Positions 3,702-11,541 of a DNA stretch of 64,000 bases are shown piece by piece (the stretch's first letter is position 1; each line of letters begins with the position of its first letter). The notes below the pieces were generated by a model. The model saw only the letters and a program-made list of their open reading frames with translations. It had not been told where the DNA came from and made no database searches. A program made the translations under genes and the position numbers. Origin of the DNA: Yinghuangia soli (GTDB lineage: Bacteria; Actinomycetota; Actinomycetes; Streptomycetales; Streptomycetaceae); contig NZ_JAKFHA010000017.1 in assembly GCF_021502675.1 (NCBI RefSeq), positions 13,542-77,541 of the forward strand, in the 5' to 3' direction.

Positions 3702-5144
<1,443 letters not shown>

Positions 5145-5653
5145 GGGTACTCCATGGATCGCGTACGGGACAGAGGCGGCCCTGCGCCGCCCTTCCAAGG
5201 TAGGCGCGCGAGGCGGGAACCGACCTTGTACGCGACGTCCAAATGGGTGACCGCGGTTAGGACGACTTGTACGGTCCGGGGGACAGCCTGACGGACGTCG
5301 GACTGTCGCAGAGCCGCCAGGGCACGCGCGGCCCATGCGCCGAACCGCCGACTGCGTGGGGCGACGGAACGCAGGGGCGGGGCTCCGAGCGAGGCGCAGG
5401 AGCAGTCTGGCGCGGTCCGAAGCGACGAATGCGAGTGGTCCCCCGGAGGTGGGGGCGGCCGGGCGCAGGGCGATCGGTGGCCATACGCGCGAAGCTCCCG
5501 TCAGGCCCAGGTGCGGGCGGGTCTGGCGACGTCCGAAGCCGGTCCCACGTCAGGGTGGTCTCCCGAAGCTGGGGGCTCGTGTTCGGGGCCGGACGCAGCG
5601 GCGACCGATGGCCCCCGGCGCGGGGGGCCGACCCCGTCCCCGTTCGAAGCGGT
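5145..5653. other. 509-bp intergenic stretch without a supported gene
   Basis: It lies upstream of the aldehyde dehydrogenase and downstream of the PucR gene. The part next to 5144 should hold the dehydrogenase promoter. The rest is G-rich on the + strand, with imperfect GTCCGAAGC-type repeats, and has no convincing start site, homologous protein or strong terminator. Confidence 0.5.
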
Positions 5654-7312
5654 TCAGGCGCGGGGGTGGTCGCCTGGGGGTTGGGGGTGGTGGTCGGGGG
5701 TGGTCAGGCGCAGGGCCAGCCAGAGTTCGGTTCTTGTGTCGGGGTCGTCGAGGCGGCGGCCGAGGATTTCCTCGGCTCGGCGGATGCGGTAGCGGAGGGT
5801 GTGGCGGTGGATGCCGAGGTCGCCGGCGGCGGCGTCCCATTGGCCGTGCCGGGCGAGCCAGGCGCGGACCGAGGCGGTCAGGTCGCCGCGGGAGGAGGCG
5901 TCGTGGGCGTGCAGGGGGGCGAGGAGTTCTTCGGCCCAGCCGCGGACGGCGTCGTCGGCGAGGAGCGGGAGGAGGGAGGCGCCGGCGTGGCCGTAGACGG
6001 TGAGGACGCGGCCGGCGCCCGCGCCGACGCCGTAGGCCTGGCGGGCTTGGCGGTAGGCCTCGGCGGCGGTCTGCGGGGCTTCGCCGTGCGGGCCGGGGGG
6101 TTCGGACACGCCGACGGCGAAGCCGGGCAGGTCGCGGGCGGCGGAGGCGAGGACTGCGGCGTCGTCGTCCAGGAGGCGGGCCGGGACGATCAGGATCGTC
6201 GCGTCGTCGAGTTCGGCGGCGAAGACGCCCGCGGTGGCGGCCGTGACGCGGTCGGTGAAGGTGGTGCGGGCGGTCTCGGGGCCGTGTGCGACGGCGATGG
6301 CGAGCGGCGGCGGGGGCAGCGGGCTGCTCATGTCGCGCGCGATGGAGCGGACGAGGCCGTCGATCGAGGCGGGGCCGGCCGGGTCGCCGGGGTCGGTGGT
6401 GAAGGCGGCGGTGGTGGCTGCGGCATAGGGCGTGCCGTGCGCGGCCGGGGTGGGGGCGCTGAGCCACAGGCGCAGGAGTGCGGTGCGCATGCGGGCCTCG
6501 GCGGCGCCCAGCGCGCGGGACTGTTCGAGCGCCAGGGTGAGGAGCGAGGTCGCCGAGCCGATGATCTGGCGGTCCGCGGGGCCGGGGGCGCGGTCGGTGC
6601 CGACGGCGAGGAAGCCGCGGATGCGGCGGTCCGCGCCGAGGGACTGGAGGACGACGCGTTCGGCCTGCGGTCCGGCGCTCTGGAGCGAGGCGGACGCGGG
6701 CGCGGACAGGCCGCGGAGGCGGGTCACATCGGCGGCGAGCGCGGCGGCGCGGGGGCGGGCCGCGGCGGGGCTGACGTGTATGGGCGCGCCGGACGGGTCG
6801 TACAGGGCCGCCCAGCCGTCCAGGCGGCCGGCGAGGCGGCGGATCAGCGCGGCGGTGCCCTCGCGGCCGAGGACGGCGCGGGTGAGCTCCTGCTGGGCGG
6901 CGAAGCCGGTGGTGACGGACTCGTACTGGTCGGCGGCGAGGGCCGAGGAGACCATCTTGCTGATGGCGATGAACGGTGTCGGGCGCGGTACGGCGAAGAC
7001 CGGCAGCCCGCGTTCCTCGGCGGCCTCGACGACCGCGGCAGGCACCTTGGAGTGCGTCAGGCCGATGCCGAGGCCGAGGCCCACCACGCCCGCGTCCGCG
7101 AGGCGTTCGACGTACGCGCGGCGCTCGGCGGTCGACCGGCCCAGCTTCATGCCGGTGGTCAGCACGAGCTCGCCGCCTTCGAGGTACGGCGTGGGGTCGG
7201 CCAGCTCGCTGGTGTGCACCCAGCGGATCTCGCGCCCGAGGTTGCGCTCCCCGGCCAGCACGAGCAGGTCGAGCGAGGGGGCCCGGACGAGCTGCTCGAG
7301 GGTGGGGGGCAT
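5654..7312 (-). CDS. PucR-family transcriptional regulator
   Basis: A 552-aa DNA-binding regulator with the PucR layout. The N-terminal PucR domain (about residues 1-125) begins PTLEQLVRAPSLDLLVLAGERNLGREIRWVHTSE-type and contains LEGGELVLTTGM. A middle GGDEF-like/CdaR region follows, and a C-terminal PucR helix-turn-helix ends in LARHGQWDAAAGDLGIHRHTLRYRI. The ATG at 7312 starts exactly where the family begins. Members usually respond to purine, GABA or amine metabolites. It lies downstream of, and in the same direction as, the VirD4-like ATPase gene and near gabT, so control of GABA use is a reasonable inference. A pair of dyad repeats 90-136 bp upstream could be its own operator. Confidence 0.9.
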   Translation of the reverse strand: MPPTLEQLVRAPSLDLLVLAGERNLGREIRWVHTSELADPTPYLEGGELVLTTGMKLGRSTAERRAYVERLADAGVVGLGLGIGLTHSKVPAAVVEAAEERGLPVFAVPRPTPFIAISKMVSSALAADQYESVTTGFAAQQELTRAVLGREGTAALIRRLAGRLDGWAALYDPSGAPIHVSPAAARPRAAALAADVTRLRGLSAPASASLQSAGPQAERVVLQSLGADRRIRGFLAVGTDRAPGPADRQIIGSATSLLTLALEQSRALGAAEARMRTALLRLWLSAPTPAAHGTPYAAATTAAFTTDPGDPAGPASIDGLVRSIARDMSSPLPPPPLAIAVAHGPETARTTFTDRVTAATAGVFAAELDDATILIVPARLLDDDAAVLASAARDLPGFAVGVSEPPGPHGEAPQTAAEAYRQARQAYGVGAGAGRVLTVYGHAGASLLPLLADDAVRGWAEELLAPLHAHDASSRGDLTASVRAWLARHGQWDAAAGDLGIHRHTLRYRIRRAEEILGRRLDDPDTRTELWLALRLTTPDHHPQPPGDHPRA

Positions 7313-7401
7313 GGCGGGATCCTGTGCGCCGGGCGGCCCTGGGTGGCCGAAGTGGAGTGGAGGTGTGCCTCCATTCTGCCTCTCCGGCCAGGGGATGCGA
7401 T

Positions 7402-7448: not shown

Positions 7449-7518
7449 GCCTGCGCCGACCGCCCGCGTCCCGGCGGGTTGCGGGGACCGTCCGACTCGA
7501 CGGTCCCCCGCGTCCCCG

Positions 7519-9909
7519 TCAGCTCGGGTCGAGCTCGATCAGGATCGGTCCCGTGCGGTCCCCGTCGCGCGTGCTCAGGCTGCACAGCACGTGCTTGGCC
7601 TTGAGCTCGCCGGAGATCTCGGACGGCGACCAGTGGAAGCGCTCGACGCTGCGCACCGTGACGCTCTCCGAGCCGCCCGCCGCCTTCTCGCCGAAGAGCG
7701 CGCCCATGACCGCGAAGCGGGCCTTGCGGACCAGGCCGCCCTCGGGTGCGCCGCGGGTCACCGAGCGTTCCTCGACCAGCTTCTTGCCCCAGTGCTCCGC
7801 GAAGGCCTCGGCGTCCCGGGCGCCCGCGCCGGGCAGGACCGCCTTGCAGCCGACCCCGCCGAAGACCGGCGGGCGCAGGCGCAGCGGGAAGTCGTCCATC
7901 GAGCGCACCGCGAGGACCATGCCGGCGTTGCGGCCGCGGATCCAGCCCAGGCCCTGCGCGGCGTAGTCGTCGAGGTAGGCGCCCGCGCCGTCGGCGATCA
8001 GGCAGGCGAACGGGCCGTCCGCCGCGGCCTCCGGGTCGCGGGCCGCGGCGGCCTGCACGAAGTGGCCGACCAGGAGGCGTCCGACGATGCGCGCGGCGTC
8101 CGGGTACGCGGCTTCGTTGAGGGCCACCCGCACCCGGACCGGGCGTCCGATGTGCCGCATCGCGAAGCGTTCCCGGGCCGGATCGAACAGTGCGGCCATG
8201 CCCGGGCGTTCCAGCACGGACAGGCGCTGGACGACGAGCCGTGCGGCGTCGTCGGCGCGGGCCAGGGTGCGCAGGCCGCGCTCGAACTCGGCTTCGCGGC
8301 CGGCCTGGGCCAGCGCGGCACGCAGTGCGCCGAGGGCGTCCTCGTGTCCGTCGAGCAGGTCGAGGAGCGTCGCGAAGGAGGGGTGCCGGCCGTGGGCCGC
8401 GACGTACGCGGTGATGGCCTGGTGGAGTGCGGCGCGGGCGCCATCGCGCAGGCGCGCGTCGTCCTCGTCGGCGCCCAGGGCCGCGGAGGCCAGCCGGGCG
8501 GCGGCCTCCTCGGGCGAGTCGGCGGCGCCGTACGGGTCGATGCCCCACGGCGATTCGGGGTCGCCGAGCAGGATCTCGATGTCGTACGCGCCAGGCCGGG
8601 CGAAGCCGGTGCCCTTGCTGTCCAGCACGACGACCGAGGCGCCGCCGGACAGCGCGGCCAGCCCGAGCGACTCGACGACCGGCCGCAGCAGTGCCTCGGC
8701 CTCGCCGGCGCCGGACGGGCCGACGACCACCATGGAGGTGCCGAGGGTGTCCGGTTCGAGGGCGAAGTCGACGGCGCGCAGCGGCGCGGTGTTGCGTTCG
8801 CTGTCGGCCATCCGGCCGACCTTGACCTGGCCGGTCATCAGGTCGTGGACCGCGCGCCGGGGGCGCAGGTCGCGCGAGCCGGAGCCGTGCACGCAGGCGC
8901 CGGCACCGCGTTCGGCAATCTCGTAGGCGACGTCCTCGAGGTACTCCGGGTCGCCGTCGCTCGCCTCCAGGACGCGGCGCAGGCGCAGGAAGTCGACGTC
9001 GCCGAGGCGGCCGAGCGAGGCTTCTTCCTCCAGCCGGTCGGCGGCCCCGTCGAGGCCGGCGCCGCGCAGCTCGGGCCAAAGTTCCTCGTCGGCGGCGTCG
9101 GCGGTCTCGGCCGCCTCCTCGTCGCGCCGCGGGCGGGTGAAGTACGGCCGCAGCACGGCCGCCCAGCCGCCCCAGTAGGCGGCCGCCGCGATGAACGCGC
9201 CGTTGTAGACGATGCGGATCAGCGGCTGCATTTCGTGCAGCGTGTGGCGGCTGCCCGGGAAGGTCTCGAGGAGCAGCCACACGAACGGGCGCATGAGCAG
9301 CGCCCAGGCGACGACCCCGGCGGCGAGCGCCACGCCGGCGCGCTTCCACTGCTCGGGGGACGGGCGGCCGTTGACCGCGGCCCGCTGGTCCAGGCGCTGG
9401 AACGTCGGACCGAGGTAGTGCATGGCCAGGACGTGCCAGCGGCCCAGATAGGCGAAGAACGCGAAGTAGGTGAGCCAGAAGGGCGAGGCGAAGACCGGCC
9501 ACAGCCATTTCGGCACGACCGTGCCGATGATCCACACGTACGCGACGACGAACCAGCGGCCGGCCAGCACCGACAGCAGCAGCCACAGCGCGGCGCGGCG
9601 GACCAGTGCGGCGTCCGGGCGGCGGCGGGCCCGCTCCTCCAGGGCGCGCAGCTTGATGGCGCCCTCGTCGCGGCCGTACGCGAAGATCCCGGGCGCGTCC
9701 TGGAAGCGCGGTGCGGTGATCCAGCCGCGCAGGTCGAAGCCACCCGAGGCGCCGCCCGCGGGCTTGGCCGGGTGCGGCACTCCGGGGCGTCCGGGAGTGC
9801 CGAAGACCGGTTCCTCGAGCTCCGGGTCGTGCCACCACTCGCCTGCGGTCCCGGTCGCCGCCGCGGCCGATTCGCGGCCGTCCGCACCCCGTCTGCGTTC
9901 CACGTCCAT
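7519..9909 (-). CDS. VirD4/TraG-like membrane ATPase with degenerate P-loop
   Basis: A 796-aa protein. About residues 105-290 contain four or five membrane segments (for example WLLLSVLAGRWFVVAYVWII and PFWLTYFAFFAYLG). The C-terminal half resembles the cytoplasmic ATPase domain of type IV coupling proteins. The Walker A position reads GPSGAGEAE (about residues 397-405), so the essential Lys and Ser/Thr are replaced by Glu and Ala. Walker B-like strands ASVVVLDSKG and FACLIADGAG remain. In relatives that I recall the motif is GPSGAGKT (memory). The ATG at 9909 follows GGTGACGG closely. It lies between pucR and divergent gabT, an arrangement I associate with Streptomyces. There are no conjugation genes nearby, so a transfer role is doubtful and its real job is unknown. 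Confidence 0.82.
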   Translation of the reverse strand: MDVERRRGADGRESAAAATGTAGEWWHDPELEEPVFGTPGRPGVPHPAKPAGGASGGFDLRGWITAPRFQDAPGIFAYGRDEGAIKLRALEERARRRPDAALVRRAALWLLLSVLAGRWFVVAYVWIIGTVVPKWLWPVFASPFWLTYFAFFAYLGRWHVLAMHYLGPTFQRLDQRAAVNGRPSPEQWKRAGVALAAGVVAWALLMRPFVWLLLETFPGSRHTLHEMQPLIRIVYNGAFIAAAAYWGGWAAVLRPYFTRPRRDEEAAETADAADEELWPELRGAGLDGAADRLEEEASLGRLGDVDFLRLRRVLEASDGDPEYLEDVAYEIAERGAGACVHGSGSRDLRPRRAVHDLMTGQVKVGRMADSERNTAPLRAVDFALEPDTLGTSMVVVGPSGAGEAEALLRPVVESLGLAALSGGASVVVLDSKGTGFARPGAYDIEILLGDPESPWGIDPYGAADSPEEAAARLASAALGADEDDARLRDGARAALHQAITAYVAAHGRHPSFATLLDLLDGHEDALGALRAALAQAGREAEFERGLRTLARADDAARLVVQRLSVLERPGMAALFDPARERFAMRHIGRPVRVRVALNEAAYPDAARIVGRLLVGHFVQAAAARDPEAAADGPFACLIADGAGAYLDDYAAQGLGWIRGRNAGMVLAVRSMDDFPLRLRPPVFGGVGCKAVLPGAGARDAEAFAEHWGKKLVEERSVTRGAPEGGLVRKARFAVMGALFGEKAAGGSESVTVRSVERFHWSPSEISGELKAKHVLCSLSTRDGDRTGPILIELDPS

Positions 9910-10185: not shown

Positions 10186-11541
10186 ATGGGCGCTTCGCAG
10201 CCCGGCGGGCCGTCGCTTCCGCAGGAGCGCCGGCTTGTCACCGCCATCCCCGGCCCCAAGTCCGTCGAGCTCATGGAGCGCCGGAACAAGGCCGTGGCGC
10301 GTGGCGTCAGCACCACCCTGCCGGTGTTCATCACCCGCTCCGGCGGCGGCGTCGTCGAGGACGTGGACGGCAACTCGCTGATCGACTTCGGCTCCGGCAT
10401 CGCGGTGACCAGCGTCGGCAACAGCGCCGAGGCCGTGGTCCGCCGCGCCACCGAGCAGCTGCAGCGCTTCACCCACACCTGCTTCATGGTGACCCCGTAC
10501 GACTCGTACGTGGCGGTGGCCGAGCAGCTCAACGAGCTCACCCCGGGCGACCACGAGAAGCGCACCGCGCTGTTCAACTCGGGCGCCGAGGCGGTCGAGA
10601 ACGCGGTGAAGATCGCCCGCGCGTACACCAAGCGCAGCGCGGTCGTCGTGTTCGACCACGGCTACCACGGCCGCACCAACCTGACGATGGCCCTGACGGC
10701 GAAGAACATGCCGTACAAGGAGTCGTTCGGCCCGTTCGCGCCCGAGGTCTACCGGGTGCCGGTGGCGTACCCGTACCGCTGGCTGACCGGCGCGGAGAAC
10801 TGCGCCGAGGAGGCCTCGGCGGCCGCGATCGACGCGATCACCAAGCAGATCGGCGCGCACAACGTCGCCGCGGTCGTCATCGAGCCCATCCTGGGCGAGG
10901 GCGGCTTCATCGAGCCGGCCAAGGGCTTCCTGCCGCGCATCGCGGAGTTCTGCCGCGAGAACGGCATCGTGTTCGTCGCGGACGAGATCCAGACCGGCTT
11001 CTGCCGCACCGGCCAGTGGTTCGCGTGCGACGACGAGGGCGTCGTCCCGGACCTCATCACCACCGCCAAGGGCATCGCGGGCGGCCTGCCGCTCGCCGCG
11101 GTGACCGGCCGCGCCGAGATCATGGACGCCGCGCACGCGGGCGGCCTGGGCGGCACGTACGGCGGCAACCCGGTGGCCTGCGCCGCCGCGCTGGGCGCCA
11201 TCGAGACGATGCGCGCGCTGGACCTCAACGCCGCGGCCACCCGCATCGGCGAGGTCATGAAGGCCCGCCTGGGCGCGATGGCCGAGAAGAACCCGGCGAT
11301 CGGCGAGGTCCGCGGCCGCGGCGCGATGATCGCGATCGAGCTGGTCAAGCCCGGCACCAAGGAGGCGAACGCGGAGCTGGCCGGCGCCATCGCCAAGGCC
11401 TGCCACGCCGAGGGCCTGCTGGTGCTGACCGCCGGCACCTACGGCAACGTGCTGCGCTTCCTGCCGCCGCTGGTGATGCCCGAGCACCTCCTCGTCGAGG
11501 GCCTGGACATCCTGGAGAAGGTCATCGGCCAGGTCGCCTGA
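10186..11541 (+). CDS. gabT: 4-aminobutyrate (GABA) aminotransferase
   Basis: A PLP-dependent class-III aminotransferase moving the amino group of GABA to 2-oxoglutarate, giving succinic semialdehyde and glutamate. It has 451 residues. Visible motifs are FNSGAEAVENAVKIAR, the YHGRTNLTMALT loop, EPILGEGGFI, the VADEIQTGF region with the cofactor Asp, and Lys295 in TTAKGIAGG for the Schiff base. The ATG at 10186 has AAGGAGA six bases upstream. It is followed by a strong terminator, so it is probably monocistronic, and it is divergent from the ATPase-pucR pair. It probably takes GABA from the polyamine pathway genes located 10-35 kb away. Confidence 0.95.
   Translation: MGASQPGGPSLPQERRLVTAIPGPKSVELMERRNKAVARGVSTTLPVFITRSGGGVVEDVDGNSLIDFGSGIAVTSVGNSAEAVVRRATEQLQRFTHTCFMVTPYDSYVAVAEQLNELTPGDHEKRTALFNSGAEAVENAVKIARAYTKRSAVVVFDHGYHGRTNLTMALTAKNMPYKESFGPFAPEVYRVPVAYPYRWLTGAENCAEEASAAAIDAITKQIGAHNVAAVVIEPILGEGGFIEPAKGFLPRIAEFCRENGIVFVADEIQTGFCRTGQWFACDDEGVVPDLITTAKGIAGGLPLAAVTGRAEIMDAAHAGGLGGTYGGNPVACAAALGAIETMRALDLNAAATRIGEVMKARLGAMAEKNPAIGEVRGRGAMIAIELVKPGTKEANAELAGAIAKACHAEGLLVLTAGTYGNVLRFLPPLVMPEHLLVEGLDILEKVIGQVA

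Follow-up and report, generated by a model that had tools for sequence, protein, structure and literature searches.

A chromosomal VirD4/TrwB-fold protein with a degenerate nucleotide-binding site beside gabT in Yinghuangia soli, and its possible partnership with the Cmd machinery

Genes and features of the locus

The analyzed stretch of DNA (hereafter the window) covers 64,000 nucleotides of the Yinghuangia soli genome. An open reading frame on its minus strand, starting with an ATG codon, encodes the membrane protein studied here, and its features are collected in Table 1 together with those of the neighboring genes. As an earlier sequence-only reading of this DNA had pointed out, the protein carries GPSGAGEA in place of GPSGAGKT at the Walker A position. 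Among the best 80 of 577 loci, its closest named relatives come from Yinghuangia seranimata (73%) and Embleya (56-57%).

Table 1. Positions of the gene under study, its internal features and its neighbors in the window
Feature	Position	Strand	Basis or remark
VirD4/TrwB-fold membrane protein, 796 aa, degenerate nucleotide-binding site	7519..9909	-	ORF, structure model, fold matches; putative SCO5677 orthologue
N-terminal membrane region, residues 100-246	9172..9612	-	Model and hydropathy
Walker A position GPSGAGEA, residues 397-404	8698..8721	-	Catalytic Lys replaced by Glu403 (8701-8703)
DSKG, residues 430-433, DPKG-type motif after the P-loop	8611..8622	-	Alignment
Helical insert, residues 466-567, in place of the coupling-protein all-alpha domain	8209..8514	-	Model secondary structure
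Walker B position FACLIADGA, residues 634-642	7984..8010	-	Second acid lost; alignment
Arg669, at the outgroups' conserved Gln after strand 4	7903..7905	-	Alignment
Hairpin with 10-bp stem, directly 3' of the gene	7483..7508	-	Folding z -2.39; no U tract
gabT-type class-III aminotransferase, divergent neighbor	10195..11541	+	PF00202, E 7.6e-126
PucR-type regulator, downstream neighbor	5654..7315	-	PF07905, PF13556
Aldehyde dehydrogenase, same conserved neighborhood	3702..5336	-	Pfam scan and neighborhood comparison

A Pfam scan of 33 frames of the window revealed no family of type IV secretion systems (T4SS), relaxases or other conjugation functions and hence no linked conjugation module in these frames, in agreement with the sequence-only reading, which had noted no conjugation genes nearby. 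An Rfam scan over the window found nothing. The window carries core genes, such as those for ribosomal protein S2 and EF-Ts. No consensus terminator was found 3' of the gene, and the hairpin at this place is a possible end of the transcript. Since gabT is divergent and this hairpin follows the gene, nothing indicates an operon with gabT. Farther along the window, positions 21540-49137 hold a second catabolic group with three aldehyde dehydrogenases, a second PucR regulator, a class-III aminotransferase and an FAD oxidoreductase, a content that suggests polyamine or GABA degradation.

Fold and family assignment

The structure model of the 796-aa protein was built from 50 sequences and reached a pLDDT of 87 and a pTM of 0.81. 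Its best solved match, at rank 1 in Foldseek (E 7.5e-11), is the coupling protein TrwB of plasmid R388, with a structural alignment over 368 residues at Z 22.2, rmsd 3.3 and 14% identity. Further predicted fold matches after TrwB include DndH, HerA, VirB4, Cag-beta, FtsK and EccC. The nucleotide-binding domain predicted by the model is therefore RecA-like and of the TrwB type. The helices of residues 466-567 lie between the two Walker motifs and are spanned by the TrwB match; they would correspond to the all-alpha domain, which has the same position in TrwB (PMC7434980). The N-terminal region comprises four long helices in the model, and two stretches in it reach a mean hydropathy of 1.5. The hydrophobic stretches at residues 110-128 and 195-213 are predicted to form the N-terminal transmembrane domain, in line with the membrane part proposed from sequence.

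Profile searches with the window protein itself gave little. No Pfam model recognizes it (PF02534, PF10412 and PF12696 included), NCBIfam and Pfam together returned nothing but one chance-level match, and sequence searches of the PDB returned chance-level matches only. Two distant homologues pass Pfam cut-offs: L238 for TraG-D_C (25.3 bits, cut-off 22) and L161 for TrwB_AAD_bind (25.3 bits, cut-off 20.5). Together with the TrwB-like fold, these outgroup matches show that the initial VirD4/TraG family call was right. Weak PADLOC matches to mad8 were seen in 4 of 24 rows (best 1.2e-5) and not for the window protein; we took them as shared P-loop similarity and rejected a role in defense. An N-terminal DUF2510 domain was found in three homologues from another family of the order (f3, see below; L092, L160, L161), and was not reported for the scanned members from Streptomycetaceae.

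The protein shares with T4SS coupling proteins of the TrwB/VirD4 type the fold, the helical insert and the N-terminal membrane region, but differs from them in having lost the Walker A lysine, the second acid of Walker B and the glutamine after strand 4. In addition, its gene belongs to the core genome and is vertically inherited, and the window frames scanned contain neither a T4SS gene nor one for a relaxase. A P-loop fold is also shared with EccC, one of the fold matches. EccC is an example of a secretion ATPase with degenerate modules, which have kept the fold while catalysis was lost. However, it has several ATPase modules within one chain, whereas the 796-aa protein is a single module.

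Distribution, neighborhood and selection

Genomes were grouped by family, with f1 denoting Streptomycetaceae, f2 and f3 other families of the same order, and f21 a family outside the order. A homologue of the 796-aa protein was found in 199 of 200 genomes of the family and in 290 of 293 genomes of the order, including all three genomes of Yinghuangia. Three of the four misses are fragmented assemblies (G033, G225 and G226, with 800, 910 and 710 contigs), while the fourth, G200, is a good assembly from another family; a repeat search of these four genomes yielded no homologue. Outside the order, 14 genomes of f21 have a strong homologue.

The neighborhood is conserved too, as the sequence-only reading had stated for Streptomyces genomes. 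The gabT gene is the divergent neighbor in all 18 chosen regions of the family. Of 10 further regions, nine have gabT next to the homologue, among them 7/7 from the order outside the family; the exception is genome G016. Among named loci, gabT adjoins in 67 of the 68 with enough flank (the locus counted without it, L130, has a gabT match below the cut-off used), and PucR lies downstream in 73 of 75. The near-universal presence in the family, the fixed neighbors and the core genes in the window led us to reject a recent conjugative element.

In Streptomyces coelicolor, gabT is SCO5676 (PMC3293853). The adjacent locus number and the same arrangement in the 18 family regions make SCO5677 the putative orthologue of the Yinghuangia gene, an assignment based on synteny and on locus numbers from the literature. 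According to passages of PMC6585502, insertions in SCO5677 affect antibiotic production, and the gene is said to act in the formation of aerial hyphae.

The constant company of gabT, PucR and aldehyde dehydrogenase genes could mean that the protein works for the GABA pathway, for instance as a membrane sensor or organizer. We regard this as very unlikely, despite the adjacency to gabT in all family regions, in the seven order regions outside the family and in nearly all named loci. In f21, none of the six regions analyzed has gabT near the homologue, G016 retains a homologue without gabT beside it, and the phenotype reported for SCO5677 is developmental (PMC6585502). Because the f21 homologues lie away from gabT and because of this phenotype, we rejected GABA metabolism as the main reading, and GABA is probably a positional neighbor only. 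Of the two non-transfer roles raised in the sequence-only reading, the link to GABA metabolism is therefore not supported, whereas a non-transfer role as such is likely and membrane organization comes nearer to the evidence. Two f21 homologues with the full set of motifs, L238 and L239, are adjoined in both regions listed by a membrane protease of the M48 (HtpX-like) type, in the place of gabT.

We estimated dN/dS by simple pairwise counting; the comparison leaves out the PucR and aldehyde dehydrogenase rows for Embleya and the own-E1 row for aldehyde dehydrogenase, which are apparently in a wrong frame. The ratio is 0.29-0.33 among the three Yinghuangia copies and 0.17 between two Embleya copies, compared with 0.13-0.18 and 0.06, respectively, for gabT. 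The reading frame is open in all Yinghuangia and Embleya copies. By these estimates, the gene evolves faster than gabT, yet is clearly constrained by purifying selection. We tentatively regard it as a chromosomal gene, passed on vertically, whose product descends from the VirD4/TrwB family of coupling ATPases and no longer serves conjugation.

Loss of the Walker A lysine

The P-loop alignment comprised 139 rows with 128 distinct homologues, a sample that leans towards the Yinghuangia/Embleya clade. The P-loops were read in the best-scoring loci (the best 30 per genome search and the best 80 of 577), so that further losses may have escaped notice. At the Walker A position, 119 distinct homologues have Lys (in GKT or GKS), seven have Glu and two have Arg. 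The Glu proteins are exactly the seven distinct proteins from Yinghuangia and Embleya, three and four genomes respectively. Found in all seven, Glu403 cannot be put down to chance or to a sequencing error. Of the observations named in the sequence-only reading as refuting it, retention of the lysine by orthologues applies to most of them, whereas an isolated error in this sequence does not apply. The threonine that follows the lysine is also replaced, by Ala, Ser or Pro, in most Yinghuangia/Embleya rows.

The lysine state changed at least four times on the FastTree phylogeny. The two Arg proteins, from S. californicus (L050, identical to L110) and Actinacidiphila alni (L105), lie apart on this tree, and in G016 (L167) the P-loop is gone, the sequence reading GPLEGPRR. 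These three loci sit on long branches (0.38 for L050, 0.35 for L105 and 1.29 for L167, against a median of 0.068). The two Arg proteins have the same altered P-loop, ending in G-[SA]-D-R-T, in two separate lineages.

In TrwB, the substitution K136T leaves the protein without ATPase activity and without transfer, as described in passages of PMC7431656. Loss of ATPase activity in the Yinghuangia/Embleya protein is well supported by its sequence, and we strongly infer that the protein does not act as an ATPase. In the Streptomyces group of the putative orthologue SCO5677, the situation differs: apart from S. californicus, the sampled proteins of this genus retain the lysine of Walker A.

Stepwise erosion of other catalytic motifs

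The motif table has 142 rows, namely six from f21, seven from f3, six from Yinghuangia/Embleya and 123 from other Streptomycetaceae; the window protein (L001), two partial sequences (L007 and L056) and identical copies were left out. The 13 outgroup rows of f21 and f3 have a complete set: the Walker A lysine, the Asp of DPxG, a D-E or D-D pair in Walker B and the Gln after strand 4 are each present in 13/13. In all 129 rows of Streptomycetaceae, the Gln is replaced by Arg. The Asp of DPxG is found in none of the 123 rows outside Yinghuangia/Embleya, of which 120 keep the Walker A lysine; conversely, D-x-K-G is kept and the lysine lost in 6/6 rows of Yinghuangia/Embleya. The Streptomyces proteins of the SCO5677 group that were read have thus lost the DxKG that Yinghuangia keeps. 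The second acid of Walker B is lost in Yinghuangia (G, G and N), the window protein having D-G at residues 640-641.

In the alignment with the outgroups, the stretch SVVVLDSKG (residues 425-433) lines up with the DPKG motif located behind the P-loop. Of the two strands that had been read as Walker B-like and intact, one is therefore this DPKG-type motif, and the other is a Walker B that is damaged. As read from these rows, the order of erosion is as follows: outgroups with GKT, DPxG, D(E/D) and Q; then Streptomycetaceae with R for Q; and then Yinghuangia/Embleya, which lost K.

Co-occurrence of D430 and K432 in all six Yinghuangia/Embleya rows that lack K403, and in none of the 123 other Streptomycetaceae rows, might indicate that ATPase activity persists, with Lys432 of DSKG standing in from a displaced position for the Walker A lysine. 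We consider this extremely unlikely. The Walker B acid and the Gln are lost too, and all six f21 outgroup rows carry both lysines, which makes K432 ancestral rather than compensatory. Strand 2 sits at the edge of such sheets, away from the phosphates, which also counts against the exchange.

A rather more serious, though still unlikely, explanation is relaxed constraint, in which the Streptomycetaceae proteins are slowly losing the ATPase as an ancestral function fades, with Yinghuangia further along and no positive role for a pseudo-ATPase. Every Streptomycetaceae row shows eroded motifs (Gln to Arg throughout, and the DPxG Asp lost in 123/123 outside Yinghuangia/Embleya), and the repeated changes of the lysine state, three of them on long branches, could arise in this way, as could a dN/dS above that of gabT in Yinghuangia. 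However, the ratios of 0.17-0.33 and the open frames in the lysine-less clade, the retention of the gene in all but one of the family genomes and the phenotype of SCO5677 insertions (PMC6585502) argue against a fading function.

Co-occurrence with the cmd and tgdA genes

SCO5677 mutants share phenotypes with mutants of another gene set. According to passages of PMC6585502, which names Gehring 2000 and Xu 2017 as sources, insertions in SCO5677, cmdBCDEF and tgdA of S. coelicolor raised actinorhodin to the same levels and prodiginine was reported as raised in all of these mutants; the paper ascribes to all three a role in aerial-hypha formation and groups them as ‘DNA transaction genes’. Cmd, known since 2009, is a complex for sporulation and antibiotic control. 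Its VirB4-like component CmdB is located in the membrane, mutation of its conserved lysines abolishes complementation, and its authors proposed a possible type-IV-like channel (all in passages of PMC2782261). CmdB (SCO4127) belongs to the same ATPase superfamily as the protein studied here. Among the papers listed by our literature searches, we saw none linking SCO5677 to Cmd as a coupling protein.

The Y. soli genome contains cmdB, neighboring membrane-protein genes and an SLT/NlpC transglycosylase gene, arranged as cmd/tgdA genes would be; further cmd-like genes are present, with CmdE and CmdF not told apart. By its letters, the CmdB of this genome appears to hold both lysine contexts of the mutagenesis primers given in PMC2782261. 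The cmd-like genes lie on contig C12 and the 7519-9909 gene on contig C9, hence outside the cmdABCDEF operon, and a homologue of the 796-aa protein inside a cmd operon was never seen in the loci examined. Unlike this protein, the VirB4-like CmdB is encoded in its own operon and retains its P-loop, GESGNGKS being present in 39/39 loci, Yinghuangia and Embleya included.

In a sample of 22 family genomes, every one had CmdB at more than 780 bits, as did 29 of 30 additional genomes of the order. It is kept in Yinghuangia, Embleya and G016, the genome in which the P-loop is gone. It is missing from G230 (S. californicus, with the Arg P-loop), as judged from one search of a 100-contig assembly that was chosen for its P-loop; as the sole Streptomyces genome tested in which the lysine is lost, G230 speaks for relaxed constraint. 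Conversely, G200 has CmdB without a homologue of the 796-aa protein, and a CmdB orthologue was found in 0 of the 14 f21 genomes with a strong homologue (six without a match and eight with distant VirB4 matches). Since co-occurrence is not strict in G200 and f21, the link with Cmd rests mainly on the shared mutant phenotypes and on a type-IV-like set that has no coupling ATPase. We place the odds of a partnership with Cmd at about even or below.

The f21 homologues, which occur without CmdB and beside the M48 membrane protease in both neighborhoods listed, are also compatible with a role in envelope homeostasis, alone or with another partner and independent of Cmd, where the effects on antibiotics and aerial growth would be a shared outcome of envelope stress. 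Many other envelope genes likewise alter actinorhodin output, according to PMC6585502. This explanation is unlikely in our view, given that the effects of tgdA, cmdBCDEF and SCO5677 on actinorhodin are reported in the same source as equally strong, and that the cmd set is otherwise type-IV-like but lacks a coupling ATPase.

Two additional observations concern related genes. Contig C878 of G430, a fragmented genome of another family with 6% contamination, has a 77% match to CmdB, which suggests either that the contig is foreign or that cmd is more widely distributed. The Y. soli genome (G000) also encodes other coupling-protein-like genes, L178 and L179 on contig C12 (331-347 kb) and L180 and L181 on contig C14 (128-134 kb), one of those on C14 being near a VirB4-like gene. 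As far as can be read from their letters, these genes keep the P-loop lysine, the VirD4-like L180 having GATGSGKS.

Proposed role and implications

Our preferred reading, to which we assign a probability of roughly 45%, is that a coupling protein has turned into a pseudo-ATPase within the non-conjugative, type-IV-like Cmd machine. In Yinghuangia and Embleya, the change would have come about by the Lys to Glu replacement, the change of the adjacent Thr and, in Yinghuangia, the loss of the Walker B acid, on top of the family-wide Gln to Arg replacement. At the cell membrane, the protein would serve as an ATP-independent docking or gating subunit. Its partner would be the VirB4-driven Cmd machine, composed of CmdA-F and the lytic transglycosylase TgdA and acting in the formation of aerial hyphae and spores, for which CmdB would supply the ATPase. 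Besides the incomplete co-occurrence with CmdB and the position outside cmd operons, two points weigh against this proposal. The phenotypes come from Streptomyces, whose proteins, among those read, keep the lysine with one exception, and we know of no mutant of a Yinghuangia copy; in addition, repeated loss of the lysine could also result from relaxed constraint.

The lysine lost here is the one whose mutation stops ATP hydrolysis and DNA transfer by TrwB, as described in PMC7431656. Its natural loss on more than one occasion, with the gene kept under purifying selection in one lineage, would reveal what such a coupling protein does in the absence of ATP, and would point to a part of the Cmd machine that is still missing. 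For Streptomycetales as a whole, it is a doubtful but conceivable extension that these bacteria have domesticated a type-IV-like machine that is non-conjugative and serves sporulation and aerial growth, its genes being divided between the cmd/tgdA locus and a distant one for the coupling protein, next to gabT. The family would then preserve, as a natural series, the intermediate stages through which a secretion ATPase is retired. In such a machine, the coupling protein would have been shifting from a motor to an ATP-free scaffold, a shift that would be complete in Yinghuangia and Embleya, with CmdB left as the motor.
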